Positions 1,248 to 28,233 of a stretch of DNA of 28,352 nt are shown one piece after another (position 1 is the stretch's first letter; every line of letters starts with the position of its first letter). The notes under the pieces were generated by a model, which ran no database searches, was not told the DNA's origin, and saw nothing but the letters and a program-made list of their open reading frames with translations. This DNA comes from a virus. Both the position numbers and the translations under genes were made by a program. The stretch lies in the IMG/VR virus record IMGVR_UViG_3300033273_000047, positions 1-28,352 of that record. The stretch is one strand, 5' to 3'.

Positions 1248-1278
1248 TATATATCGAAAAATAAATTAAATTTTAGTC
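1248..1278 (-). promoter_or_regulatory. Bipartite phage promoter candidate, copy 1 (terminase)
   Basis: On the minus strand this reads GACTAAAA, 14 nt, then CGATATATA (1256-1248). It shares the exact architecture YAAAA-N14-CGATATATA with four other intergenic sites. It lies between the DnaA-like gene and terS. Measured to the TATATA part, the spacing from YAAAA is 17 nt, which is like a -35/-10 promoter. The function is inferred. Confidence 0.7.
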
Positions 1279-4245: not shown

Positions 4246-4748
4246 AATAATTCTTTAATGTTTTTTAACATATCGTTATTTATAAAATATCCGTCTGTTT
4301 TTAATTGAAATGTAGTTCCATTATTTCTTTTTCTTAAAGTACCTTTTTTTAAAAATATAGATTTCTCTTTTATTTCTTTTTTAGTTAGCCACCCGCATAT
4401 ATTCAGTTCATTCTTTATTTTGTTTAAACTGTTAAATATATATATATCGCAATCATATTTCATTTGAAAAGCTATTAAGTGATGTACAAAATTATCTTGC
4501 ATATCTACATTCCTGCCCATTGTCTTGACGTCTATTGTTTTGTCGTTATATTTAAAATCAAATCCTCCGTCAAATCCATTCTCAAATGTATGCTCAATAT
4601 TAAATATCTTTTTAGTTAGTATTTCTCCTAATAATCCAATTAATTGATTTTCTTTATTTCCATTTGCACTATGCCTATTACCCATATTGTTTTCTTGCAG
4701 GTATTCCCAACATTCCTCTTTTAATTCTTTAGGTACTTTTATTATCAT
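4242..4748 (-). CDS. PD-(D/E)XK nuclease-like protein
   Basis: This 168-residue protein shows the restriction-endonuclease-like core: Glu42 in LIGLLGEIL, Asp60/Asp64 in GFDGGFDFKY, then TIDVKTMGR with Asp73-x-Lys75. This E...D...D-x-K order is the usual PD-(D/E)XK active site. The length and a single domain suggest a small structure- or damage-specific nuclease or a restriction-like enzyme; I cannot choose. It is coupled by ATGA to the sigma-like gene before it and to the 55-residue gene after it. Confidence 0.75.
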   Translation of the reverse strand: MIIKVPKELKEECWEYLQENNMGNRHSANGNKENQLIGLLGEILTKKIFNIEHTFENGFDGGFDFKYNDKTIDVKTMGRNVDMQDNFVHHLIAFQMKYDCDIYIFNSLNKIKNELNICGWLTKKEIKEKSIFLKKGTLRKRNNGTTFQLKTDGYFINNDMLKNIKELL

Positions 4749-5224
4749 ATATATTGCTTTAATTTTTCTTTTACTTTATTATAAGTATTGTATAGAGAAT
4801 AATAGCTTATATCGCTTTTTCTTGATAGTTCGCTTATGTTCGTTCCTTCCTCTATTATCTCGTATACTTTTCTATCGTACCAGTACATCTCTTTCAAAAC
4901 GTTTTGTATCTTCTCGTAAACTTGTTGATAGTTTGTATGGTCATTCTCGCTAATTTCTAAACCTTCAAGTTCTACTAATTTTACTTTACACTTCTTTCTC
5001 ATTAAATCTACATATAAACCTCGCAGGATTCTATAGACATACCAGTAATTAACTTCTGTATCATTATACATAAAATTAACTCCCTTCTGTGTGTTTTGTA
5101 TTAATAGCATATACATTGTCTGCACTAAATCTTCAACTTCTGTTTGTTTAAGACCGCCAAAGGTTTCGACTATGTTAATCCATTTATCGTGCTTCTCGTA
5201 TGCTATTTCTACTGGTGTTTTCAA
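4745..5224 (-). CDS. Sigma-70-like transcription factor, TTG start
   Basis: This 159-residue protein looks like a compact sigma factor. Residues about 28-80 resemble region 2: EVEDLVQTMYMLLIQ, then NYWYVYRILRGLYVDLMRKK, in the place of the -10-binding and core-binding helices. Residues about 115-157 look like a region 4 helix-turn-helix (YDRKVYEIIEEGTNISELSRKSDIS, then a recognition-type helix). It starts with TTG overlapping the helicase stop as TTGA; there is no nearby in-frame ATG that keeps region 2. It is a candidate to direct RNA polymerase to the five phage-specific promoters in this window, but it could also be a sigma-like DNA-binding protein without that role. Confidence 0.68.
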   Translation of the reverse strand: MKTPVEIAYEKHDKWINIVETFGGLKQTEVEDLVQTMYMLLIQNTQKGVNFMYNDTEVNYWYVYRILRGLYVDLMRKKCKVKLVELEGLEISENDHTNYQQVYEKIQNVLKEMYWYDRKVYEIIEEGTNISELSRKSDISYYSLYNTYNKVKEKLKQYI

Positions 5225-6135
5225 AATGGTAAATTTAATTGTTCTATCATTGTTCCTTTTACTGCTTGACTATCTCCTATTTGGAATCCTACATTATTGA
5301 CTATGCTTTTGATTTTTATAGGGTCGTCTATTGGTGTAGGTCGTCCCCCCGAATCTATGTCTTTTACTTTTCTTATATGCATCATTGAATACATCCAGTC
5401 AGTAGGGTGCTGAATATACCTATGTATAACCATAAAGTCATCAGCTCTATTCACAAACTTTCCGCCTCCTTCTACGTCACTAGCCATAGGAGGAATAGGA
5501 TGCCCTGCGTAATCTTCATTTTGATTGTGCTTCTTTCTTAATGCTTCTGTAGCTGCGTGAGTACATAGCCATATAGAAACATTATGCTTTTTGCAGAACA
5601 CTCTAAACTCGCTTGTAGCTTGATAATCGTAATCGTGACCTGAAATACCTTTTAACGTATCTCGATCTTTTAATAAAGAATTATAAGGGTCTATAAGAAA
5701 TCCTTGATATTCCCAAGCATTTTTAATAACAGTAGCCAAGTCAATAAGCGACTTATAAGTATAAAGCTCATTAATATCAATAAACTTAAAGTGATTGTAT
5801 ACGAATTCTTTGTGCTTATTAAATTCATCTTCGGTAATTTTGTTTATAGGTTTGACTGCTAAAAATTCTATAAGTTTCTTAATAATTGAATACGGTTCAT
5901 TCTCACTAGAATACACAAGCCACTTTATATTATGCTTAATTGAATACAATAACATAAAAAATAAAGTAAGTGTAGTTTTACCAGAATTGGCGTGTCCTAA
6001 TACTATATTAAAATTCCCGTACTTAAAACGTAAATGTTCGTCTATAGTCGGGAATCCTAATTTTAAACCTTCTTTGATTTTACCAGTCCTAATATCTTGG
6101 AGTTTACTGATCTGGTCGTCAAAGTTGATTAGCAT
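5221..6135 (-). CDS. DnaB-like replicative helicase ATPase
   Basis: This 304-residue RecA-fold ATPase belongs to the DnaB/twinkle helicase type. The motifs are Walker A GHANSGKT (47-54), a conserved SSENE (76-80) with the catalytic Glu, Walker B FLIDPYNSL (146-154), and a sensor-like WLCTHAATEALR (189-200). It lacks the N-terminal primase or primase-binding domain of full DnaB (about 450 residues), as is common in small phages. It would unwind DNA at the replication fork, probably as a hexamer. It is one base away from the gene before it and coupled to the sigma-like gene after it. Confidence 0.85.
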   Translation of the reverse strand: MLINFDDQISKLQDIRTGKIKEGLKLGFPTIDEHLRFKYGNFNIVLGHANSGKTTLTLFFMLLYSIKHNIKWLVYSSENEPYSIIKKLIEFLAVKPINKITEDEFNKHKEFVYNHFKFIDINELYTYKSLIDLATVIKNAWEYQGFLIDPYNSLLKDRDTLKGISGHDYDYQATSEFRVFCKKHNVSIWLCTHAATEALRKKHNQNEDYAGHPIPPMASDVEGGGKFVNRADDFMVIHRYIQHPTDWMYSMMHIRKVKDIDSGGRPTPIDDPIKIKSIVNNVGFQIGDSQAVKGTMIEQLNLPF

Positions 6136-7754: not shown

Positions 7755-8159
7755 TCACAAAGATAGTCGTTTATTTTCCTTATGCAATTTTTCTTTATAC
7801 AAATCCACTAATTCGTGCAAGTCATTCATAGAGTATTTAACTACTTCTTTTGACTTATTATAAAGTCGTTTAGATAAACCTCTTGATTGTTTGTCTAATG
7901 CTAAACTAAACTGGTATTGTCTACCGTATCTGAATCTATTACAGTATTGACATTGTGCAGCTACGTTTCTTTCGTCCCAACGTACTGACATTTCTTTACG
8001 AGATATAAAATGCCCTGCGTCTAATTCGTTCCACTTAAATTCTCTTTGACAAGTTATGCACTTACAAAATCCTTTTTTGTCTGCATCTCTTTTTCGTATG
8101 TATTCGCTAAATATTCTGTCTAGTTTGTTTATAAGACCTTTACGACTGATTTTTCTCAT
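7755..8159 (-). CDS. ninG: NinG/Rap-like recombination protein
   Basis: This 134-residue protein has the NinG family layout. The basic N-terminus (ISRKGLINKLDRIFSEYIRKRDA) leads into a treble-clef zinc site with C34-x2-C37, the AGHFISRK box with His50, then C70-x2-C73 and NRFRYGRQY. In lambda, NinG (Rap) is a Holliday-junction/branched-DNA nuclease that stimulates recombination. It is shorter than lambda Rap (about 200 residues) but keeps the zinc and HNH-like core. It is coupled to the upstream gene by ATGA, and a strong terminator follows. Confidence 0.88.
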   Translation of the reverse strand: MRKISRKGLINKLDRIFSEYIRKRDADKKGFCKCITCQREFKWNELDAGHFISRKEMSVRWDERNVAAQCQYCNRFRYGRQYQFSLALDKQSRGLSKRLYNKSKEVVKYSMNDLHELVDLYKEKLHKENKRLSL

Positions 8160-14570: not shown

Positions 14571-16319
14571 TTATCTGTAATTAGGGTGGTGTCCGTTATT
14601 AGGCATATCTTTAGGTGCAACCTTTGCTTTTTTATGTCCTGCGGGTGTAGGTTGGTACGATTTAGGTATGCTATTTACTTCATCGTAATTTTGAATTACT
14701 TTCTTCATTGTTTTAGATTTTAACCTATACAATACCGCACTCCAATAGTGACCACAGTTTACACCGCCTTTGTATTTAAACAAGTCATAAGATTTGCCTT
14801 TATGTCCAAATGATTTATTAACTCCTGCTCTTGACGCTTTGTCAATATCTTCTATTCTATATACAACGCCTCGACCACTTCTTGACATCATAATTCTACA
14901 GAACTGTCTTGATTTACCAGAAGAATATTTTTCATTATATCTATATCTAACTTTATATAACGACTTGTCTAAATAACTAAATCCTGACTTTTTAGAATCT
15001 ATACTTTTCTTTTCTAAATTCTCTTGTTTAGATTCAATTAATCTAGCCGCCCATTCTTCATCACTTTCAGCATCTTCTTTATATTCTCTTTCGTCTACAA
15101 TTTCCCATCTATTAGAGATTTTTTCGCCTCTTAATTCATCTAATATAATATCAAATTCTTCGTCAGATAAATCTTCACTTAACTTTACGCCTGTTTCTTC
15201 TTCTCTTGTTTCTTGGTCTGCTACATTGTCTAGGTCTGTAAATTCAAGCGGCTGAAGCGTTTTAAAGTATAAATTAAGCGAGATATTGTTATAAGCTAGT
15301 ATTCTATCAAACGCATCAATTAAAAGCGTCTGAAACGGTCTAATTACCGTGTTGTCCATTAATAAAGTAGCTGTCTTTAATTCATCTGCATTGTTTCCTA
15401 AACCTGACTGGTCTTTAATACCTAAAAGCATTGGAGAAACAACTCTATGAGCTACCATAATCTTTTTTGTACTTTCTTCACTTAAGAATTGATATTGTTG
15501 ATGCGCATCTGATAATTGTACAGGTTCTATACTTGCAGCACTTTCTGCATTATCATTAAAAGCTAATATGAACTTACCCGCATTACTTGACCCGCTAAAC
15601 TTTTGGTATATTCTTTGCTCAATAAGTTGTCTTTCCTCCGCATTTGGTGTACCATTGTTAAAGTTAATTAACATAGAAGGCGACATACCATTCATTATGT
15701 TGTTTAAGTGGAAGTTAGATATTTCTTCTTCTAGTTCCGCATATTGTAACCCTCCTTGATAATCTACAGGAGAATAATAATAAAATCCTGCTTTATAAGG
15801 TTTTACATATAATATCTCTATACTTTCTTTGCTATAACCAAAAGCAGGTATTCTTAAAGGTTTATCATTTGGTTTGTATTTAGACCAATCCTTAAAATAA
15901 TAATATGCTTCTATTTCTCCTTTTTCATTGCACTTTTCAGCTCTTAATGTTTCAACAGGCATATGTTCAACTTGTGCGATTTTTTTTCTGTCTTTAGAAT
16001 AAATGACTTGTATAGCACAACCTCCCATTAACTTTAAGTCATAGCAAAGTTTTCTTACGCAGTCATTATTAAAAAGTGAAATCATTTGTGCATACTGGTC
16101 AGGTTTTTTATTAGAGTTTGTAGCATCTAAACCTTTTCCAAATATCATAGCAGATATACCGTTTATAACTGCATTGTTTGTAGGAGACCCATTGTATCTG
16201 TCAATTAAGTATTGAAAGTAGTTATTATCGTCTCCATAAGATACCCATTCCTTATTCTTAACTTCTTTTATTTTAGGACTTGTATAGGTACTTAAATTAA
16301 CTATTCTTAAATCATTCAT
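14571..16319 (-). CDS. Portal protein with a C-terminal Cys/His extension
   Basis: This protein has 582 residues. Residues 1-370 form the portal: YGDDNNYFQYLIDRYNGSPTNNAVINGIS at the start, a clip/stem region (LMGGCAIQVIYSKD), FNNGTPNAEERQ and the typical VVSPMLLGIKDQSGLGNNADEL before the wing-to-crown helices. It forms the dodecameric DNA entry ring. After an acidic linker (about 370-430) comes an extension of about 130 residues with basic patches and the motif GVNCGHYWSAVLYRLKSK, which is not part of the minimal portal fold. The extension may be a head-morphogenesis (MuF-like) or DNA-binding part. It overlaps the preceding gene by an ATGA junction. Confidence 0.9.
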   Translation of the reverse strand: MNDLRIVNLSTYTSPKIKEVKNKEWVSYGDDNNYFQYLIDRYNGSPTNNAVINGISAMIFGKGLDATNSNKKPDQYAQMISLFNNDCVRKLCYDLKLMGGCAIQVIYSKDRKKIAQVEHMPVETLRAEKCNEKGEIEAYYYFKDWSKYKPNDKPLRIPAFGYSKESIEILYVKPYKAGFYYYSPVDYQGGLQYAELEEEISNFHLNNIMNGMSPSMLINFNNGTPNAEERQLIEQRIYQKFSGSSNAGKFILAFNDNAESAASIEPVQLSDAHQQYQFLSEESTKKIMVAHRVVSPMLLGIKDQSGLGNNADELKTATLLMDNTVIRPFQTLLIDAFDRILAYNNISLNLYFKTLQPLEFTDLDNVADQETREEETGVKLSEDLSDEEFDIILDELRGEKISNRWEIVDEREYKEDAESDEEWAARLIESKQENLEKKSIDSKKSGFSYLDKSLYKVRYRYNEKYSSGKSRQFCRIMMSRSGRGVVYRIEDIDKASRAGVNKSFGHKGKSYDLFKYKGGVNCGHYWSAVLYRLKSKTMKKVIQNYDEVNSIPKSYQPTPAGHKKAKVAPKDMPNNGHHPNYR

Positions 16320-16681
16320 ATTATAATATAATCGTTATCGTGTGAACCAGATGTATCATCAAAGTCATATTGACCATCGTTAATGTCGTAGTAGTCGTTA
16401 TTGTCTTGATTAATTGTCTGGTCTGTACAAAATATTTTGTCTTTATAAACTATATCGCTTCCTGACAATAAAGTCATTATATAATTTCTTCCCTCTTTTA
16501 ACACAGGGTCAAATGTAACTGATACAGTTCTATAATTATCGCTTGTACTTGCTGAAACACTACCGTTAAATACTTCATCGTTTGCAGCTTCATCGTGTAC
16601 TTTTAAAGTATAAGAAGAAGCAAATGTTCTTGGAATTACGCTAATGTTTTGAGCTGAAGCACTTGTCGTCAATATCTTCAT
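16316..16681 (-). CDS. Small virion protein candidate, Ig-like
   Basis: This 121-residue protein is beta-rich and acidic, starting MKILTTSASAQNISVIPRTF, with YTLKVHDEAANDEVFNGSVSAS and YIMTLLSGSDIVYKDKIFCTD. It ends in an Asp/Asn-rich tail closing with DNDYIII. This build fits a head-decoration or neck protein with an immunoglobulin-like fold. The ATG lies only 3 nt after the CGATATATA box, so its mRNA would be practically leaderless. It is the first gene of the portal operon. Function inferred from context only. Confidence 0.6.
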   Translation of the reverse strand: MKILTTSASAQNISVIPRTFASSYTLKVHDEAANDEVFNGSVSASTSDNYRTVSVTFDPVLKEGRNYIMTLLSGSDIVYKDKIFCTDQTINQDNNDYYDINDGQYDFDDTSGSHDNDYIII

Positions 16682-16684
16682 ATT

Positions 16685-16715
16685 TATATATCGAAATAAT
16701 AACGCTATTTTGTAT
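16685..16715 (-). promoter_or_regulatory. Bipartite phage promoter candidate, copy 2 (portal operon)
   Basis: The minus strand reads ATACAAAA (16715-16708), 14 nt, CGATATATA (16693-16685). It sits just after the terminator at 16723-16752, making a terminator-promoter pair. The ATG follows after 3 nt. Confidence 0.78.
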
Positions 16716-17392: not shown

Positions 17393-18343
17393 TTATGCTA
17401 GAGTTAATAAAGCTAGGTCTGAACCGATACCATATTGTACTCCTGCTGTGAATCTCATAATTACTCTTACGTTTTGAGACCCGTCTAAATCAGCCATATC
17501 TAATAACTTCACTTCGTTATGGTCAGATAGTAATCCTGTACCAAAGTATAAGTTAGATTTTTGTCCTGCAACGATATGGTCAGAAGGCATCCCTGGCGCT
17601 AATACAACTTCAATACCGTCAAACGATAATGCGTTGCCTTCATTGTACCATAATGCACCTCTATTGTCAATACCTGCTGCACCTAATCCTGAAGCACCAT
17701 ATCCGCCTAAAGACCTGATATATGCTTGCCAAGCAGCTCTTGGTACATAGATTTTTAAATCTTCTTTACCATAAACTGCTGAAGGAAGCGCATCTACTAC
17801 GTTTTCTAATAAAGAAACGATGTTAGTGCTTGAAAATGCAGTTTCTGAATCGTTAGCTGCATCATTTACGTCAGAATCAGCAGCCATTAATACTGTGAAT
17901 CCGTCAAATTCTCCTGCGTTACCGTTTACACCACCCCAGATGTTTTGCTCATTCTTTTCTGCTACTAAACCTGCAACGTGTCCGATTAAGAAATCAGAAA
18001 ACTTTGGAGGTAAGTTTTGGTTAAGATAAGAATATCCCATTTCAATCGCTTCCCAATCAGAAACGAAATCCTTTTTACAAAGCTCAAGGTTTACTTGGAA
18101 TTCTTCTGGTTGTAGGATTCTTTCAGTTAAAGTAACTGTCGCTGTGTCTGTGAAGTCACAAGTAGCGTCTTTGATTACGTTAGAATCAGTTGCTACCTTT
18201 TTAATTACATCTTTAAATTTAACGTTAGGTTTAATTTCGATGTTTCCGTTGTCTAATGTAGGAGAACTTAAAAGGGCAGCACTTATATACTTCCCTGAAA
18301 ATTCGCCTGCATAAGTACTTGTTATGCTTACTGTAGTCGCCAT
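17393..18343 (-). CDS. Major capsid protein (HK97-fold type)
   Basis: This protein has 316 residues. Typical regions are an N-terminal arm (MATTVSITSTYAGEFSGKY), KFKDVIKKVATDSNVIKDATCDF, an E-loop/spine-like part (LQPEEFQVNLELCKKDFVSDWEAIEMGY), and the A-domain region ALWYNEGNALSFDGIEVVLAPGMPSDHIVAGQKSNLYFGTGL, ending VRVIMRFTAGVQYGIGSDLALLTLA. The Gly-Met-Pro loop and the C-terminal FTAGVQYGIG strand are common to HK97-fold capsids of Bacteroidetes phages. No delta-domain is fused; the scaffold-like gene directly before it would provide that role. It is followed by a strong terminator, as usual for a very highly expressed gene. Confidence 0.85.
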   Translation of the reverse strand: MATTVSITSTYAGEFSGKYISAALLSSPTLDNGNIEIKPNVKFKDVIKKVATDSNVIKDATCDFTDTATVTLTERILQPEEFQVNLELCKKDFVSDWEAIEMGYSYLNQNLPPKFSDFLIGHVAGLVAEKNEQNIWGGVNGNAGEFDGFTVLMAADSDVNDAANDSETAFSSTNIVSLLENVVDALPSAVYGKEDLKIYVPRAAWQAYIRSLGGYGASGLGAAGIDNRGALWYNEGNALSFDGIEVVLAPGMPSDHIVAGQKSNLYFGTGLLSDHNEVKLLDMADLDGSQNVRVIMRFTAGVQYGIGSDLALLTLA

Positions 18344-18361
18344 AATTATTTATTATTTATT

Positions 18362-18961
18362 TTAAAAATTTACTATTCTTTCTAATACTCTATCTCTTGT
18401 ACTTAATCTTCTTTTTTGTGCGTACAAGTGATTTTCTTTTTTTACTTCTCCTTCTGGATTATGCTTAATAGGTTCAGCAGCAGGTTGTGATAATTCTTCT
18501 TTTACTGCTTCTTCTACTTTCTCTTGCTCCGATAACATAGTTGTCATTGCAAGTCCGATTTCTTCAGCTACTTCTTGGTCTTTTAATTCAAGTTTAGCTT
18601 TTAAATCTTCAATGATAGCTTTTAGTTCAGATACTTCGTCTTTTGAAGCGTAAACTTCTTCTTTCATTTCTTCTTCTTCTGAAGTAGCTTCTTCTTCTTC
18701 TACTTCTTCTTCCATTTCTTTGATGTCAGAAATTATACCTTCATTAACGACAAGAATTTTCCCATCTTCTAATTGATATTCTCCATTAGGTACTGGTACT
18801 CTTTCGTCTTCTGTAACTATAAAAACTTCATTGTCTTTTTCAAACGCTTCTGCTTCTATAACAGTTCCGTTTTCTAATTTCATTTGCTCAAGTTTTACTT
18901 CTTCTTGAAGCTCAACACCTAACAAATCTTTGACTTTGTTTAACATTTCTGTAGCTTTCAT
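18362..18961 (-). CDS. Scaffold-like capsid assembly protein
   Basis: This protein has 199 residues. The N-terminal 80 form a beta-rich part: ENGTVIEAEAFEKDNEVFIVTEDERVPVPNGEYQLEDGKILVVNEGIISDI. A highly acidic stretch follows (about residues 82-105, runs of Glu), then a coiled coil (SELKAIIEDLKAKLELKDQEV) and a basic end (AQKRRLSTRDRVLERIVNF). An acidic helical rod with a basic C-terminal capsid-binding tail, directly before the major capsid gene, is the normal picture of a scaffolding protein. The ATG is 3 nt from the CGATATATA box. Confidence 0.72.
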   Translation of the reverse strand: MKATEMLNKVKDLLGVELQEEVKLEQMKLENGTVIEAEAFEKDNEVFIVTEDERVPVPNGEYQLEDGKILVVNEGIISDIKEMEEEVEEEEATSEEEEMKEEVYASKDEVSELKAIIEDLKAKLELKDQEVAEEIGLAMTTMLSEQEKVEEAVKEELSQPAAEPIKHNPEGEVKKENHLYAQKRRLSTRDRVLERIVNF

Positions 18962-18964
18962 ATA

Positions 18965-18995
18965 TATATATCGTTTAAGGTTATTTATTTTGCAT
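18965..18995 (-). promoter_or_regulatory. Bipartite phage promoter candidate, copy 3 (scaffold and capsid)
   Basis: The minus strand reads ATGCAAAA (18995-18988), 14 nt, CGATATATA (18973-18965), then 3 nt to the ATG at 18961. The upstream octamer is identical to that of copy 4. Confidence 0.8.
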
Positions 18996-19001
18996 TTTTA
19001 T

Positions 19002-19328
19002 CTAAAAGAGATTAGCTACCGATTTTAAAGCATTTCCCTTTTTTATAAATCCATCTGCTATGTCTTCTAGTTTTTTTAATTCTGGAGGTACAGGAACGCC
19101 TAAATCATTTGCACGTTTTACTAATTCTCCATACTTACTTTTAAAACTATCTCCTGCTCTTAAAAGACCATTGTATTTTTTTACTTCTGTACTTAAATCT
19201 GATTCTATTTTTCTTCCTCTTTGTATTAAATCTTTTAAGTCATCTACTAATGCTAATTCAATCTTTTCCGATTTTAATTCCTCTTTGTTTATTTGTTTAT
19301 AAACTGATTTTAATGTTCTTGGATTCAT
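19002..19328 (-). CDS. Helical protein, paralogue of the next upstream gene
   Basis: This protein has 108 residues. The N-terminus MNPRTLKSVYKQINKEE followed by EKIELALVDDLKDLI matches that of the gene at 19339-19701 (MDTRTLKRIYSKLSKQE, KVELASVQEIGKLA). Both also have a later LP or VP, LEK/LKK and DLG stretch. The whole protein appears helical. Two tandem copies that have since diverged suggest an internal head protein, an adaptor pair or a scaffold helper. They lie 10 nt apart in the same orientation. No known family. Confidence 0.68.
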   Translation of the reverse strand: MNPRTLKSVYKQINKEELKSEKIELALVDDLKDLIQRGRKIESDLSTEVKKYNGLLRAGDSFKSKYGELVKRANDLGVPVPPELKKLEDIADGFIKKGNALKSVANLF

Positions 19329-19338
19329 AGTTATATTA

Positions 19339-19701
19339 TTAAATAGTTGTATGAAATTTATTAAGTGTGTTAATTATTTTTTTTACGTTTATTGCATCTT
19401 TTGTTGCTATGTATGCTTCTCCTAATTCATTAATGTTGTCAGGATTTATTCCTAAATCTCTTGCTTGTTTTTCAAGTTCAGGCAATTCTCTTTCCATTCT
19501 ATCAGCAAGTTTAATTGCTTGTTCAAGTTTATTAGCTACTGCTCTTGATTCACTTATTAATCCTTTTATTCTAGAAATTGCTGTATCAGTATCTCTAAAA
19601 TATTGACTTGCTAATTTTCCTATTTCTTGTACAGAAGCTAGTTCAACCTTTTCTTGTTTTGATAATTTACTATAAATTCTTTTTAATGTTCTTGTATCCA
19701 T
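19339..19701 (-). CDS. Helical protein, first of a paralogous pair
   Basis: This protein has 120 residues. After MDTRTLKRIYSKLSKQEKVELASVQEI come several long helices, with a central ISRIKGLISESRAVANKLEQAIKLADRMERELPELEKQARDLGINPDN. There is no known domain. It shares its N-terminus and the ELPELEKQARDLG block with the shorter gene downstream (VPPELKKLED, ANDLG). Similarity to coiled-coil scaffold or portal-associated proteins is general only. It starts 13 nt after the Cys-rich mini-gene. Confidence 0.68.
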   Translation of the reverse strand: MDTRTLKRIYSKLSKQEKVELASVQEIGKLASQYFRDTDTAISRIKGLISESRAVANKLEQAIKLADRMERELPELEKQARDLGINPDNINELGEAYIATKDAINVKKIINTLNKFHTTI

Positions 19702-19713
19702 TTTTATTTAATT

Positions 19714-19881
19714 TTAAGATGTTCTATATATTGACCCTATGCCCTGCGCTCTTAATGAGCCATCACAGCATTCAATAGAGTATGTATTCGTGTCCCAACA
19801 TAAACAAGCTGTTCTTCCTCCTTTTGGACTTGTATAGCTAGGTATATAATTTTCTCTTGATGTATTTCTTTTCCAGTTCAT
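19714..19881 (-). CDS. Cys-rich mini-protein (55 aa)
   Basis: The product reads MNWKRNTSRENYIPSYTSP, then GGRTACLCWDTNTYSIECCDGSLRAQGIG. Four Cys in a C-x-C ... C-C arrangement (26, 28, 38, 39) suggest a small zinc knuckle. The start overlaps the protease stop as TAATG. I recall similar short CLC...CCDGSL.AQGIG proteins in Bacteroidetes phage head regions; no function is known to me. It may be a minor virion protein. Confidence 0.78.
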   Translation of the reverse strand: MNWKRNTSRENYIPSYTSPKGGRTACLCWDTNTYSIECCDGSLRAQGIGSIYRTS

Positions 19882-21074
19882 TATTTAATAGGTATACAGT
19901 TAGGGACTAGTTTTCCGTTTTTTCTTTTCATTCCGTATTGTTCGTACCCTGCTTGACAAGGTGCTTTCAATTCGTGATACTCACAAGGCATATACCATAT
20001 CTGACCTTCAAAGTCGTGTTCGTGTACGCCCTCGCATCCTAAATCTATTGCGATTTCTTCTGCTCTTTCTTTAGATGAATAAGCTAATCTGTCGTCTATA
20101 ATAGCAAAGTCATCGTTTACTTTCATAGATGCTAAACTTAATTCTCCTAGCTCTTTTAGTTTAGATGCGCTCCAACGTAGACCTGCTTTGCCACCCCATA
20201 ATAAATAAGAGATAGTTCCACACGCTTCATTATCGCCTTCGTTATAATATTCTTCTGCTCTTGATAAATAAGAGTACATTCTTTTAATTGTCTCTTTAGA
20301 AATAGGTTTGCCTTGTGCTAATTGTTGCGCTCTAATCTTACCTACGTCTGTTGCGCATTTATTATTGACTTTCTTGTTTAAATCAATACCTTTCTTTGCA
20401 TTATTTTTAACACCACTTGGGTAGTCGCTATAAGATTCCATTATCATTTTCTTTCCGTTCTTATATCTCTTGTCGTTTCTTACAATACCTTTTATTTCTG
20501 ACAATAACTCTTGTGCTTCTGCTTCTACATCTGCAAAGTCATTTATTTGCTCTTTAGGTCTTTCCACTTTGTCTGCAAAATATCCTTCAATGCTAAAACC
20601 TTTTACTTTGCCTGTCTTTACATACTCATTCCATATATCTTCATTGTTTACTTTTACAGAACCCATCCAAGTACCTATAGGAAGTTCCATATCGTATTTT
20701 CTGGACTTATCGTGTACTTCATCTTCTATAATCCAAGATTCTACTAAAGACAAACCTTGTATAGAGTGCTGATGCTCTAAAGTTGAATTGTTTTGATTGC
20801 CTTTTTGTAAATAAAGTTGGGAAGCTTTTAACACCGTATCTTTAGAGAAGTATATATAATATTCATCTTCCCCGTTTCTTCTATATATAGGTTTATTTGG
20901 TATTAACAAAGCTCCCAGTAGAATACGTTTCTCTTTGTCTACTTCAGCTAGTTTTATTTCTTGATTTTTTAGTGCGACAAAATCTTCTTCTATTGCAGGA
21001 TTTTCTACTATACTAATCGCCTCTATTCCTGAAATCTCTTGGTCTTCGTCTAATATTAATTCGACTATTCTCAT
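19881..21074 (-). CDS. XkdF-type prohead protease fusion
   Basis: This protein has 397 residues. Residues 1-175 are the XkdF-like protease: SIVENPAIEEDFVALK, LLGALLIPNKPIYRRNGEDEYYIYFSKDTV, LEHQHSIQG with candidate His101/His103, and GFSIEGYF with candidate nucleophile Ser161. It would process capsid and scaffold during prohead maturation. Residues about 195-300 form a second region with NNAKKGIDLNKKVNNKCATDVGKIRAQQLAQG and EACGTISYLLWGGKAGLRW, and the end has PCQAGYEQYGMKRKNGKLVPNCIPIK with paired Cys. These extra parts are usual in the related phages I know, but their job is unclear. Confidence 0.82.
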   Translation of the reverse strand: MRIVELILDEDQEISGIEAISIVENPAIEEDFVALKNQEIKLAEVDKEKRILLGALLIPNKPIYRRNGEDEYYIYFSKDTVLKASQLYLQKGNQNNSTLEHQHSIQGLSLVESWIIEDEVHDKSRKYDMELPIGTWMGSVKVNNEDIWNEYVKTGKVKGFSIEGYFADKVERPKEQINDFADVEAEAQELLSEIKGIVRNDKRYKNGKKMIMESYSDYPSGVKNNAKKGIDLNKKVNNKCATDVGKIRAQQLAQGKPISKETIKRMYSYLSRAEEYYNEGDNEACGTISYLLWGGKAGLRWSASKLKELGELSLASMKVNDDFAIIDDRLAYSSKERAEEIAIDLGCEGVHEHDFEGQIWYMPCEYHELKAPCQAGYEQYGMKRKNGKLVPNCIPIK

Positions 21075-21077
21075 AAT

Positions 21078-21108
21078 TATATATCGTATTTTAAATTAAT
21101 TTTTGCAT
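21078..21108 (-). promoter_or_regulatory. Bipartite phage promoter candidate, copy 4 (protease operon)
   Basis: The minus strand reads ATGCAAAA (21108-21101), 14 nt, CGATATATA (21086-21078), then 3 nt to the ATG at 21074. It lies between the tape measure stop and the protease gene. Confidence 0.8.
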
Positions 21109-22980: not shown

Positions 22981-23111
22981 TTGTATTCGTTTTTAATTTG
23001 TTTCACGCCCTCTTTAAATGTTACTGGCAACTTATACTTGCCTTTAGCGATTCTTATTCTTTCTGTTTCGCCATCTGCTATTTGTAATAATTCTAATATA
23101 TTCTGTAGCAT
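22965..23111 (-). CDS. Small protein before the tape measure (48 aa)
   Basis: The product is MLQNILELLQIADGETERI followed by RIAKGKYKLPVTFKEGVKQ and a basic end. The start overlaps the stop of the 679-residue tail gene as TAATG, and the stop lies 16 nt inside the tape measure. The position immediately before the tape measure is where tail-assembly chaperones normally sit. It is too short to be a full chaperone but may be one part of that function. Confidence 0.65.
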   Translation of the reverse strand: MLQNILELLQIADGETERIRIAKGKYKLPVTFKEGVKQIKNEYKWQNK

Positions 23112-25150
23112 TATACTATGTTTAATAATTCAAGGTCACTTTCTCCAGTTCCTAAATTTGTTGTTATACTGTTTATTCTATATTCTTGATTGCCTATTAC
23201 AAACTTGTCTGCTAGTGTATAGGTTCTTAATATCTTCAAGGGTAAATACGCTTTGAACTTAACTAACCTACGCTTTACTTTAAATACGTCTGTTATATAA
23301 GATGTATAGTAATTAGCGAATAACGTACCTGCAAATGTTTCTGTAGGTGTGTACTCGTTTAGCTCTTGATTAAAATGTATATTGTCATCGTCTGTACTTG
23401 CACTTGTGCTTACACTATTGCTAGGAATATAATAATCTGTTATGTCATCATAATCGCTACTTTCATCGTTTAAGAATCTTATACTTGTTCCACTAGATAT
23501 TCTAATAGGGTAAAATAATAATGCTTCTCCTAAATAAGGGTCATCGTTGTCATCTACAAACCATCCTACCTGTGCGTCTGTTTGTGCATAAGAACTTCCT
23601 GCATCTAATAACCTTTCAAACTTCATATGCTCAAAAGGTGCTTCTACTTTATAGATGCCTCCTGCCATTTGGTCTGTTTCAGCGTCTCCTCCCCTATATT
23701 CTGCTTTACCCCATTCTGTCCCTTGAGTTAATTGAGAGTGCTGAATAGCGAGTTTAGTGCCAAGACCTTTATATCCAAAATCTATTTCTTTATAAGGCAA
23801 CGCTACATCTATTTGTCTTTGAGACATATCTACATATTCATCTATGGTAAACGTAGAACCTCCTGAATAGAAGTTGTCTAATGTTTCTACTTTAATTGTT
23901 CCGTTGTCTTGCTTATATGCAGTTAAATTAAATACCTTAAATAATCCAGTTAAGAAATCTATGACTTTCATATTTGGCATTTGTGCAGTTCCGCTAAATG
24001 ATTTAGTAGCATTGATTGTAAACGAACCAGAATTAAATGTACCACTTATAGGTTGTAATAAATCTGCTGCATCAAATTCTACGTCTGTAACTGTAAACGT
24101 TTCGCTGATTATCATTTTAAGATTATAAGTACCATTACCTAAATCTGCTGATACTGCAACGTCTGAAGGAGCTGTACCGCTAAAAGTTTCTACTACCGTT
24201 CCTCCTTGTAATAATTGTACTGTATAATCGCTTGATTCTGCTGCGTCAGGGTCTACTGTAAATGTAGCTGTAATTTTATGCGCTCCTGTTAATCCTGAAA
24301 CAATAATATTTTCTCCTGATATTGTTAAGTGATTCCAACTACTTGTATCAGGTAAACCAAAATCTACAATATGGTCATATGTTTCTGGAGCATTAGGGTC
24401 ATCTATAAATCCTTTTTTTCTGTGCATCCACATATATAAATTATAATAAGGTGCATTAGATGAATTAAAAAAATCTGTGCTAAATGTTATACCGTATTGT
24501 TCTTCTATAGCTTTTACAATTAAATGTACTCTTATAGCAAATTTTAATTGATTCCATAACACGCCTTGCTGTGTTGTTCCACTTGGATATAAATTACCGT
24601 CTCCTTCTGTAGCTGAATTATAATATAATCTATCTGTGTGCGTAATTAAAGGAACTACTAAAGCATCTGTATAAGTTGTACTGTCTACTGTAAAATCTTT
24701 TCCGTTTCTTAACGCTCCTTGTACTTGAGCTGCATTATAGTTTGTTGTAAAGTTGTTTAGCCACGTTAAAGCGTCTAATTTATCTTCTCCTAATAAATCT
24801 TTTAAGTCTACAGTATCTCCAAAAAAAGTAACTCTATAAGCATAAGGTTTGTTATCTTTCATATCTACGCCCTCTAGCTTTATCTTGCCTTTCTCAAATG
24901 GAAAATAGTTAAGCTCTATAGTTGCTGTCTTTTTTACTCTAGCGTCAAAGCCATCGTCTATGTTATAATTGTAATAATGCTCAAATACTTTGTTATTGTC
25001 TTTAGATGCAGGTAAAGAAAATGTTTTAGTAAAGTTTGTAAATACTTTTGCTATGTCTTTTACGTTTTGGATTGTCTGTGTCAATGAAACAGATTCATCT
25101 TTAAACATATCCATTCTATTACCTTCTATGTAAAGCTGTATATTCTGCAT
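23111..25150 (-). CDS. Large tail protein
   Basis: This protein has 679 residues. The N-terminus MQNIQLYIEGNRMDMFKDESVSLTQTIQNVKDIAKVFTNFTKTFSLPASKDNNKVFEHYYN, then IELNYFPFEKGKIKLEGVDMKDNKPYAYRVTFFG, belongs to a tail-protein type I know only from flavobacterial and marine phages. The middle (about residues 280-375) has a Thr/Val-rich Ig-like region and the rest is beta-rich, ending TNLGTGESDLELLNIV. It is a good candidate for the distal tail or baseplate hub, as it is encoded beside the tape measure, but this is not proven. TAATG junctions on both sides. Confidence 0.65.
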   Translation of the reverse strand: MQNIQLYIEGNRMDMFKDESVSLTQTIQNVKDIAKVFTNFTKTFSLPASKDNNKVFEHYYNYNIDDGFDARVKKTATIELNYFPFEKGKIKLEGVDMKDNKPYAYRVTFFGDTVDLKDLLGEDKLDALTWLNNFTTNYNAAQVQGALRNGKDFTVDSTTYTDALVVPLITHTDRLYYNSATEGDGNLYPSGTTQQGVLWNQLKFAIRVHLIVKAIEEQYGITFSTDFFNSSNAPYYNLYMWMHRKKGFIDDPNAPETYDHIVDFGLPDTSSWNHLTISGENIIVSGLTGAHKITATFTVDPDAAESSDYTVQLLQGGTVVETFSGTAPSDVAVSADLGNGTYNLKMIISETFTVTDVEFDAADLLQPISGTFNSGSFTINATKSFSGTAQMPNMKVIDFLTGLFKVFNLTAYKQDNGTIKVETLDNFYSGGSTFTIDEYVDMSQRQIDVALPYKEIDFGYKGLGTKLAIQHSQLTQGTEWGKAEYRGGDAETDQMAGGIYKVEAPFEHMKFERLLDAGSSYAQTDAQVGWFVDDNDDPYLGEALLFYPIRISSGTSIRFLNDESSDYDDITDYYIPSNSVSTSASTDDDNIHFNQELNEYTPTETFAGTLFANYYTSYITDVFKVKRRLVKFKAYLPLKILRTYTLADKFVIGNQEYRINSITTNLGTGESDLELLNIV

Positions 25151-26511
25151 TATCTCATATCGTTTACTTTGTTGAACGCATAGCTAAAGTCAAACGTATA
25201 GTTTATTAGTTTGTCGTTTACAGATGTTTTAAACTGTACTGATTTTGTGTCTAGTGTTATTGGTTTAACTTCCGTACCATCGTATACCCATACTTGTTCG
25301 CTTAACATTAACTGTCTTATAACCTCGTTAAATGATTCGTCTATAAATCCAGTATTCATTTGTATCTTCTCTTTGCCTGTAACGTGAAATTGTCTTATAG
25401 AATGTTTTTCCTTGTTATATGTAGGGTCATTTACAAAATCCATTAAACTACGCTTATAGCTTTCTGAATTACTATCTAAACTAATCATAGATTTTTTATG
25501 AAAAGGCATAATTTGCAATGCTCCATACTTATTATAAAACACTACATCTAAAAAGTCATATTTAGGTTCGCATACTTCTTCTAATGTTAATGTAACGCTT
25601 TGAGTATATCCAGATTTAGTTGTAGATACAACAATAGTATCTCCTGTTTCTAAAGTAGTCGTAGGTGTTATTCTTATATATACGATTTTATCTTCTGAAA
25701 CATTTGTGTCGCTTATTGTTATGTCGCTTAATGTATTTCCCCAAGCTACATCGTATAAGTTCCAAAATTCATCTACTTGTTCCCAGTAAACATCTGCGCC
25801 ACCTCCTGTAGTAAAGCTAATCGTTCCTTCTGCTTCTGCGAATACTGGAAACACTATATCTCGACCTTGTTTAAAATATATCTTTGTATTTGATTGTAAA
25901 TATTGAGGTGTGTAGTTTCCTGTGTCTGCTATTGTATATGTTTCTCCAGAAGTAAATATATCATTCTTAACTGTTAGCTGTGTATCGCTATCTATTGCAG
26001 AAATAGTAGTGCTTGTAGAATCTGTAGTATTGTTTACTGTATCTCCTACACTTACTGTCTTTGTAAATGTCTGACCTGAATCTATAAGTTTATATGCTGT
26101 CGTACCAGTTGTTGTTGAACTTATTTTAGTCACAGCAGGATTTACACTTGTTCTAGGATTTACGCCATCTTCAAAATATCCATAACCATCAAAAGCTAGA
26201 TAATCATAGTTAGCTGTTTCACTTCCTACTGTTTTAGTTAAAGTAATATCTGCTTCAACCCAAACTCCGTCTATAGAGTATGCGCCATATTCTGTTATAA
26301 GATAATCTCTAATTAATTCTGTGATTTCAAATATTACATAATTGTTAGAACCTATAATATCTTTGCTTATTGTATAAGTTGCTGATGCAGGTTTGTCTGT
26401 TGTTAATGTCCCTGAATATATAAATAAATCCATTGACGCAGAACTTAACGTACCTGATGCAGGTGCTACTTTAATGTAATATGGACTTCTTGCGTTTATT
26501 ATTGTACTCAT
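25150..26511 (-). CDS. Tail protein with Ig-like repeats
   Basis: This protein has 453 residues. The start MSTIINARSPYYIKVAPASGTLSSASMDLFIYSG resembles virion proteins of Bacteroidetes phages. Residues about 120-200 hold a Thr/Ser-rich linker with TTTGTTAYKLIDSGQTFTKTVSVGDTVNNTTDSTSTT. About 225-315 is an Ig-like/beta domain (ITIRITPTTTLETGDTIVVSTTKSG-like). The C-terminal 130 residues (EVCEPKYDFLDVVFYNKYGALQIMPFHKKSMISLD and further) look like a structural tail domain. A role in the distal tail is inferred from position. It is coupled to genes on both sides. Confidence 0.62.
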   Translation of the reverse strand: MSTIINARSPYYIKVAPASGTLSSASMDLFIYSGTLTTDKPASATYTISKDIIGSNNYVIFEITELIRDYLITEYGAYSIDGVWVEADITLTKTVGSETANYDYLAFDGYGYFEDGVNPRTSVNPAVTKISSTTTGTTAYKLIDSGQTFTKTVSVGDTVNNTTDSTSTTISAIDSDTQLTVKNDIFTSGETYTIADTGNYTPQYLQSNTKIYFKQGRDIVFPVFAEAEGTISFTTGGGADVYWEQVDEFWNLYDVAWGNTLSDITISDTNVSEDKIVYIRITPTTTLETGDTIVVSTTKSGYTQSVTLTLEEVCEPKYDFLDVVFYNKYGALQIMPFHKKSMISLDSNSESYKRSLMDFVNDPTYNKEKHSIRQFHVTGKEKIQMNTGFIDESFNEVIRQLMLSEQVWVYDGTEVKPITLDTKSVQFKTSVNDKLINYTFDFSYAFNKVNDMR

Positions 26512-27466: not shown

Positions 27467-27717
27467 TTTAATTTAGTTTTTAATTGTTTTGATTCCGCAT
27501 CCGCTTTGTCCTTCATAAATGCTAAAAAGTTTAAACATTGATGTACATTTAATTTAGTGATATGTTCAATTCGTCTAATATTCCCTTGAGCGAGTGCGTA
27601 AAGCGATGAATACCAACCCCACTTTGTCGTAAACTGTCCCGCAGGTGTATAATCCTGTCCCCCTCCTGCTCCAAATAATTCGTCATAACTCTCGACAAGT
27701 CGATTCCTAAACGGTAA
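27463..27717 (-). CDS. -1 frame extension of the tail-region gene (frameshift product C-terminus)
   Basis: From the T9 run, the -1 frame reads LPFRNRLVESYDELFGAGGG, then QDYTPAGQFTTKWGWYSSLY, ALAQGNIRRIEHITKLNVHQ and CLNFLAFMKDKADAESKQ before TGA (27463-27465). That stop overlaps the next ATG as ATGA. The stretch is typical coding sequence, with a Gly-rich turn, WGWY and amphipathic helices, whereas the 0-frame over the same DNA ends 86 bases earlier without any coupling. Upstream, the -1 frame has a TAG at 27730-27732, so the shift can only occur in the T run. Joined to the first part, it gives a protein of about 245 residues. Confidence 0.7.
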   Translation of the reverse strand, partial: LPFRNRLVESYDELFGAGGGQDYTPAGQFTTKWGWYSSLYALAQGNIRRIEHITKLNVHQCLNFLAFMKDKADAESKQLKTKLK

Positions 27718-28199
27718 AAAAAAAGCATACTACCTAATACAGCATCCATTGGCATATTCTTCATTTTCTCTTGGTCTTTTGCTTCATAGTCAGCTATAAG
27801 ATATTTATGCTTTAAAGTGTTCGTTACAGGTCTGTATAAGACAGCCATAGCCAAGTGCATATTTTCCCAACTAGATAAATGCGTGTCTAAATCAATATAT
27901 TCTCCTAAACTCATATCGTCTAGGTTCGGTATAAATCCGTATTCAACTCCGTCCATAGTAAACCTTTGCACTAGCTTCGGTTTCTGCTCAAACATATCTG
28001 CTAGAATATTAGTAATTCTATATACGTCTGTAGCTTTCATTTTAAACGCATCTTTTAAATCTATACCGCAAAATACTTCTATCATTTTAGAAGCTAGAAA
28101 CGTGTCATCGTTGTTGTTCTCTTGTATCTTTAAATACTTTTGATACTGATGTAACTTGATTTCCGATAATTGGTTAGGTATCGTAACTTTAACTCTCAT
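27549..28199 (-). CDS. Tail-region protein, 0-frame product (frameshift site inside)
   Basis: This product has 216 residues from the ATG at 28199. An upstream in-frame ATG at 28241 would lie inside the promoter and terminator and is rejected. Residues 1-160, MRVKVTIPNQLSEIKLHQYQKYLKI to AVLGSMLFF, are helical with a conserved-looking core (SKMIEVFCGIDLKDAFKMKATDVYRITNIL, then LGEYIDLDTHLSSWENMHLAMAVLYRPVT). This resembles phage tail-assembly chaperones. After the T9 run the 0-frame gives a basic tail of 55 residues that looks like off-frame translation. It is the first gene after promoter copy 5. Confidence 0.72.
   Translation of the reverse strand: MRVKVTIPNQLSEIKLHQYQKYLKIQENNNDDTFLASKMIEVFCGIDLKDAFKMKATDVYRITNILADMFEQKPKLVQRFTMDGVEYGFIPNLDDMSLGEYIDLDTHLSSWENMHLAMAVLYRPVTNTLKHKYLIADYEAKDQEKMKNMPMDAVLGSMLFFYRLGIDLSRVMTNYLEQEGDRIIHLRDSLRQSGVGIHRFTHSLKGILDELNISLN
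27692..27723 (-). promoter_or_regulatory. Putative -1 frameshift site and downstream hairpin
   Basis: The minus strand has C followed by nine T (27725, 27724-27716) and A. The 0-frame is CTT TTT TTT TAC; heptamer T-TTT-TTT at 27723-27717 allows both tRNAs to re-pair after slipping back one base to give TTA. A small hairpin TCGA-CTTG-TCGA (27703-27692) lies 13 nt downstream. The T run alone could also cause transcriptional slippage or an assembly error. Confidence 0.65.
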
Positions 28200-28202
28200 A
28201 TA

Positions 28203-28233
28203 TATATATCGAAAATTAATTACGATTTTAGAA
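28203..28233 (-). promoter_or_regulatory. Bipartite phage promoter candidate, copy 5 (tail operon)
   Basis: The minus strand reads TTCTAAAA (28233-28226), 14 nt, CGATATATA (28211-28203). The ATG at 28199 follows after 3 nt. Immediately upstream is the terminator at 28242-28270, giving the same terminator-promoter order as at 16685-16752. Confidence 0.78.

Follow-up and report, generated by a model that had tools for sequence, protein, structure and literature searches.

Which factor transcribes the late genes of this phage? The window, that is, the whole stretch of DNA analysed here, is a linear IMG/VR fragment of 28.4 kb with essentially all of its genes on the minus strand. A bipartite box, YAAAA-N14-CGATATATA, occurs in it five times, always on the minus strand and with a spacing of exactly 14 nt (5′ ends at 28230, 21105, 18992, 16712 and 1275). 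Dinucleotide shuffles gave a mean of 0.01 and a maximum of 1 in 300.

Late boxes in the window

28203..28230, minus: late box TAAAA-N14-CGATATATA, C 12 nt before the ATG of gene 27549-28199
21078..21105, minus: late box CAAAA-N14-CGATATATA, before gene 19881-21074, prohead protease (Peptidase_S78_2)
18965..18992, minus: late box, before gene 18362-18961, scaffold-like
16685..16712, minus: late box, before gene 16316-16681, which is followed by the portal gene
1248..1275, minus: late box, C 49 nt upstream of the ATG of gene 953-1207

In four of the five boxes, the C lies exactly 12 nt before the A of the late-gene ATG. Terminator-like hairpins are found just before the box at 28203..28230 (hairpin at 28270-28247) and before that at 16685..16712 (hairpin at 16755-16725). 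The scaffold-like gene 18362-18961 adjoins the presumed major capsid gene (17393-18343), and gene 953-1207 precedes the gene for the terminase large subunit.

Of the window's boxes, the terminase-associated one (1275) alone leaves a leader, of about 40 nt. Relatives keep a leader there, so gene 953-1207 may be regulated differently. A sixth CGATATATA (4441-4449) lies inside a gene, lacks the first element and is probably due to chance. On the minus strand at 25150-25170, the C of CGATATGAG precedes the start codon of gene 23111-25150 by 12 nt; this site lacks YAAAA, lies inside the preceding gene and represents either a degenerate box or a chance match.

The first-pass annotation had described the late boxes as different from host promoters, and neither TTG/TTTG nor TAnnTTTG elements were found at the late boxes, in agreement with that description. 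The primary-sigma consensus of flavobacteria, the probable hosts, is TTTG/TAnnTTTG (PMC6847099; PMC9723704). Scans for sigma-70-type promoters remained at chance level in the AT-rich DNA of the window. An ECF promoter combines a stringent -35 element at fixed spacing with a CG-containing -10 element, and both are found in YAAAA-N14-CGATATATA or its variant with CGTTATATA. It had also been proposed that region 4 of a sigma factor reads YAAAA and region 2 the downstream element. The -10 letters, which region 2 reads in ECF sigmas, co-vary with region 2 residues, as described below. The -10 part itself had to be revised and is now best read as C-12 G-11 A-10 T-9 of an ECF promoter.

A predicted ECF-type sigma factor

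The gene previously put forward as encoding the reader was confirmed as an open reading frame at 4745-5224, its strand being minus. It had been said to share an operon with the helicase, and the helicase gene indeed lies directly upstream.

4745..5224, minus (5224-4745): predicted ECF-type sigma factor gene, 159 codons, TTG start; candidate late-box reader
5221..6135, minus: DnaB-like helicase gene, same operon as the sigma gene, directly upstream
4976..5197, minus: predicted sigma region 2, residues about 10-83 (model helices 12-22, 27-46 and 60-88; alignment to Mtb SigE and SigH)
4748..4930, minus: predicted sigma region 4, helix-turn-helix, residues about 99-159 (model helices 99-112 to 141-156)

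The TTG start of the sigma gene overlaps the stop of the helicase gene, and exonuclease, endonuclease VII-like, DnaA-C-like and terminase genes follow 3′ of it on the same strand. Among the window proteins scanned, the 4745-5224 product is the only sigma-like one, which is consistent with the earlier claim that the window holds a single such gene.

NCBIfam ECF models cover the full length of the protein at E-values of 4.6e-7 to 4e-5, all of these matches falling below the curated cut-offs: TIGR02959 (SigZ) matches residues 27-158 (E 4.6e-7) and TIGR02937 (sigma70-ECF) residues 17-158 (E 3.8e-5). The two matches bear out the initial description of a 159-residue product with region-2-like and region-4-like segments. 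The corresponding match of the best relative reaches 1.1e-8, and Pfam Sigma70_r2 gave an E-value of 0.17 for the window protein and 6e-5 among relatives. The Pfam search also returned weak helix-turn-helix matches; single-protein matches to TrmB, CENPH and Mga were at chance level and were discarded. Since Pfam searches with the single protein stayed at chance level, the ECF assignment needed NCBIfam, the relatives and the fold. The phmmer and profile searches against PDB chains gave only E-values of about 0.1-1.

An AlphaFold2 model based on 24 family members (pLDDT 85, pTM 0.50) has the architecture of sigma 2 and sigma 4 domains without region 3 or 1.1, the two helical domains being joined by a disordered linker (residues 84-96, pLDDT below 50). 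The top PDB fold matches are ECF sigmas (best E 3e-3, probability 1.0), led by Bartonella RpoE, Mtb SigL, SigE and SigH, and E. coli sigma-E, and primary and other sigmas rank lower. The named viral fold matches are mostly annotated phage ECF sigmas. Against solved ECF sigmas the model reaches global TM-scores of only 0.3-0.4, for which a different placement of the two domains is a plausible cause; region 4 of E. coli sigma-E (2h27) gives a TMt of 0.77 to the model at a weak Foldseek E-value of 3.2. The structure prediction suggested by the first-pass annotation as a check thus returned a sigma-like protein, with two helical domains, a floppy linker and ECF sigmas leading the PDB matches. Judged by sequence families and the predicted fold, the window protein is an ECF-type (group 4) sigma factor with regions 2 and 4 and no region 3. 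Region 2 is expected to read the CGATATATA element and region 4 YAAAA. T4 gp55 and SPO1 gp28/gp34, small phage sigmas that serve middle or late genes, had been named as precedents. This did not hold up, as the family and fold searches gave no match to them and ECF matches instead.

Boxes and sigma gene in related phages

Relatives of the sigma are encoded in 242 viral-contig stretches and a related capsid in at least 593 viral contigs. The scan of bacterial genomes found no relative of the sigma, and the only cultured relatives found were the Nonlabens phages P12024L/S. In the relatives, boxes again precede the same four late genes (g228, protease, scaffold-like and g121) and often the small terminase-associated gene as well. 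Both elements and their spacing are kept across dozens of relatives, while the intervening sequence varies. Some loci are near-identical contigs, so that box and locus counts are not independent; with this in mind, the C lies exactly 12 nt before the A of the ATG in 187 of 220 boxes (93 loci), and 67 of the 68 loci with two or more boxes have one box variant only (39 only CGATA, 28 only CGTTA/CGCTA). In the locus with mixed types (L102), the odd match lies inside coding sequence and is due to chance. A phage thus changes all of its boxes at once, which is what a single trans-acting reader would predict.

Boxes and sigma gene co-occur in every long record in which the replication module is present. 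Two records (G030 and G035) have boxes but no sigma; most of their replication module is also absent and they look truncated, so they do not refute the pairing of gene and boxes. The comparison of related phages that had been recommended earlier therefore came out in favour of this pairing, with the boxes accompanying the sigma gene and changing with it.

Record G037 (38.5 kb; L212-L213) contains two sets of late boxes and late-gene starts and one sigma. One set has CGTTATATA and the other partly CGCTATATA, and the record is possibly a chimeric assembly of two related phages. In two further loci (L001:1242 and L016:8530), a box-like TAAAA-N14-CGATATTTATATA follows the sigma gene and precedes an ATG; it is absent from the window.

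Joint change of box letters and region 2 residues

Three relatives (G022, G032 and G036) have a capsid 85-86% identical to that of the window, a sigma of only 45-48% identity that belongs to the CGTTATATA clade, and CGTTATATA boxes. Conversely, the capsid of G042 is only 58% identical, but its sigma belongs to the same clade as that of the window and its boxes are of the CGATATATA type. As judged from these sequences, the box variant tracks the sigma clade rather than the capsid, and the sigma tree needs one change each for the two box types.

Two asparagines of Mtb sigma-H contact this part of the promoter, N88 through a hydrogen bond to base -10 and N92 at the -11 base pair (PMC6411747). Pairwise alignment equates these residues with G69 and D73 of the window sigma.

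5018..5020, minus: codon of G69, equivalent to sigma-H N88; varies with box base -10
5006..5008, minus: codon of D73, equivalent to sigma-H N92; varies with box base -11

Base -10 is exactly where the two main clades (C-12 G-11 W-10 T-9) differ. Sigmas of the CGATA clade have Gly at residue 69, in one case Cys, and those of the CGTTA clade have Thr or Ser. Three further scans brought distant clades into the comparison, where several contigs are known by one box each: G69/N73 occurs with TTATATATT boxes, G69 plus S, A or Q73 with CTATATA, and N69/K73 with GATTATCTA or AATTCTCTA. P12024L and its kin, with N69 or S69 and D73, have CGTTAATA or CGTTATTA boxes, the registers of the P12024L type (CGTTAATA) and of some long-leader boxes being read by eye from the fixed 14-nt spacing and the 12-nt distance, and L237, with N69, has AGTTATATA. 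At base -10, G69 thus pairs with A and S/T/N69 with T; at base -11, D73 pairs with G, N/S/A/Q73 with T and K73 with A. Cys69 is ambiguous, with A(-10) in L020 (terminase box) and T(-10) in L242. Chosen for a blind check of the residue rule, the L056 and L064 contigs end short of the late genes, which their close relatives reach.

On the wider tree, the -10 base switched a second time, independently, between the sister sigmas L269 (G69, CGATATATA) and L321 (S69, CGTTATATA; support 98/94), and each of the three -11 changes maps to a supported clade of its own. Only a handful of independent switches were counted, a minimum of two at -10 and three at -11. Because the two main clades also differ at residues 51 and 75, a determining role of residue 69 is not proven.

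Alternative explanations

Some phages use small DNA-binding activators for their late genes, and together with the weak helix-turn-helix matches this could mean that the protein is a sigma-like DNA-binding regulator which helps the host sigma at the boxes instead of replacing it. We regard this as improbable, given that the protein has both sigma domains, connected by an ECF-type linker, and that the -10 letters, which region 2 reads in ECF sigmas, co-vary with region 2 residues. It is very unlikely that a host sigma, whether the primary one or a host ECF, reads the boxes and the phage protein does something else. Several ECF sigmas exist in Flavobacteria, one reported promoter class having a CGT -10 box (PMC9723704); however, the primary consensus TTTG/TAnnTTTG is unlike the boxes (PMC6847099), and a host sigma would leave unexplained that the box letters follow the phage sigma clade and residues 69/73.

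That the letters follow a DNA-reading protein also weighs against the boxes being translation-initiation or RNA-processing signals and not promoters, which seems scarcely credible to us. Most boxes do end 3 nt before the ATG, and AT-rich upstream sequence aids initiation in flavobacteria (PMC6847099), but YAAAA is held at a fixed 14-nt spacing with free sequence in between, the boxes stand at operon starts, two of them just after terminator-like hairpins, and 49 nt separate the terminase box from its ATG.

Proposed late switch

The reading that we prefer, and consider very probable, is that a small phage ECF-type sigma, made with the replication proteins, joins the host core RNA polymerase and drives about five late operons from the YAAAA-N14-CGATATATA boxes. 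That the phage sigma is the late-promoter reader had been the central proposal of the first-pass annotation; it is now supported by the sigma-like fold together with gene/box co-occurrence and joint change, and we infer that the boxes are read by the window sigma protein. The sequences themselves show that the protein is of ECF type, that the boxes exist and are conserved, and that their letters change jointly with residues 69/73; core binding, promoter activity, timing and start sites are inferred.

7758..7787, minus: putative host-type (sigma-A) promoter TTG-N19-TATCTTTG, ahead of the operon with SSB, helicase and sigma gene

The corresponding 320 bases contain a host-type match in 59 of the 82 relatives, the spacer being free; in the window as a whole, the 10 matches do not stand out clearly from chance (4.5 expected, up to 11 in shuffles). 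From TTG-N19-TATCTTTG, the host primary sigma would transcribe the early/middle operon; since the sigma gene lies in this operon, the phage sigma would be made with the replication proteins. Subsequently, it would join the host core RNA polymerase, with region 4 reading the A-rich YAAAA and region 2 reading and melting C-12 G-11 A-10 T-9, the start of CGATATATA. This would switch on about five late operons, namely terminase, protease, scaffold/capsid, portal/head and tail. With the C 12 nt before the A of the ATG (C = -12, A = +1 in sigma-H numbering), transcription would start at or next to the start codon, and the late mRNAs would thus be nearly leaderless. The host-type promoter ahead of the sigma operon suggests a cascade of this kind. 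Leaderless late mRNAs, if true, would be unusual for hosts of the flavobacterial kind, as flavobacterial mRNAs are rarely leaderless (PMC9723704; PMC6847099), with only 5.5% of the mapped mRNAs in Flavobacterium psychrophilum (PMC9723704).

Relation to known systems and to Nonlabens phage P12024L

As the window protein is of ECF type, its closest precedents are phiEco32 gp36 and 7-11 gp47 (PMC8948821). In phage 7-11, a phiEco32-like phage, gp47 (SaPh711_gp47) is a late sigma that forms a holoenzyme with the host core. Its late promoters are bipartite like those of the window, GTAAtg-(16)-aCTA, with different letters and spacing, and the early genes are read by the host primary sigma, as proposed for the window phage. 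The host of phage 7-11 is of another phylum, and its sigma is experimentally proven, whereas the window sigma is known from sequence; boxes abutting the start codon are not described there. The phage sigma phiEco32 gp36 serves middle and late genes, like the role proposed here, but it uses a single-element promoter (tAATGTAtA), has no recognisable region 4 and is helped by gp79. Phage sigmas driving late genes from their own promoters with the host core (7-11 gp47, phiEco32 gp36) are already known (PMC8948821). The new part is the residue-letter code and the start-codon-abutting boxes.

Compared with bacterial ECF promoters, the window boxes have a shorter -35/-10 spacing. Furthermore, the window sigma gene lies in a phage operon, unlike those of bacterial ECF sigmas. 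The latter (Mtb sigma-H and sigma-L, E. coli sigma-E) resemble the window sigma in having regions 2 and 4, a CGT-type -10 and residue-to-base contacts at -10 and -11 (PMC6411747, PMC6372665). Residue-base codes have been derived for bacterial ECFs, whose specificity has so far been approached with autoregulated members (Todor et al. 2020, cited in PMC8103513).

As far as the sequences tell, the window family is an unusually clear natural record of joint sigma-promoter change. On balance, we favour the broader view that one or two region 2 changes (69, 73) have repeatedly been matched by concerted -10/-11 changes across a large uncultured marine phage family, probably of Flavobacteriia. This would amount to a natural recognition code between one ECF sigma and a whole late regulon, with late mRNAs leaderless by design and the promoter abutting the start codon. 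The proposed switch assigns a reader to a new late-promoter class of an abundant marine phage group, and the matched natural sigma/promoter variants provide a specificity experiment for ECF sigmas run by evolution.

The cultured relative P12024L makes the whole switch testable. The gp35 protein of this flavophage (Nonlabens/Persicivirga), annotated as 'containing Sigma-70 region 2', is 30% identical to the window sigma. On the coding strand, P12024L has seven AAACAA...CGTTA...ATG boxes (shuffle mean 0.02, maximum 2), located before structural genes and near the terminase, six of the seven with the same 12-nt distance. Box geometry is alike in the two phages, while the P12024L boxes read AAACAA...CGTTAATA and its residues are N69/D73; sigma and boxes have both diverged from those of the window, yet are present together. 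The literature searched contained no description of a P12024L late-box regulon.

PHROG 24921 (L082, P12024L gp01) matches with its N- and C-terminal parts two window genes (18362-21074), the protease and the scaffold-like gene. Both window genes have their own late box and P12024L has one gene there; either one gene may have been split, with a second promoter gained, or two genes fused, with one promoter lost.
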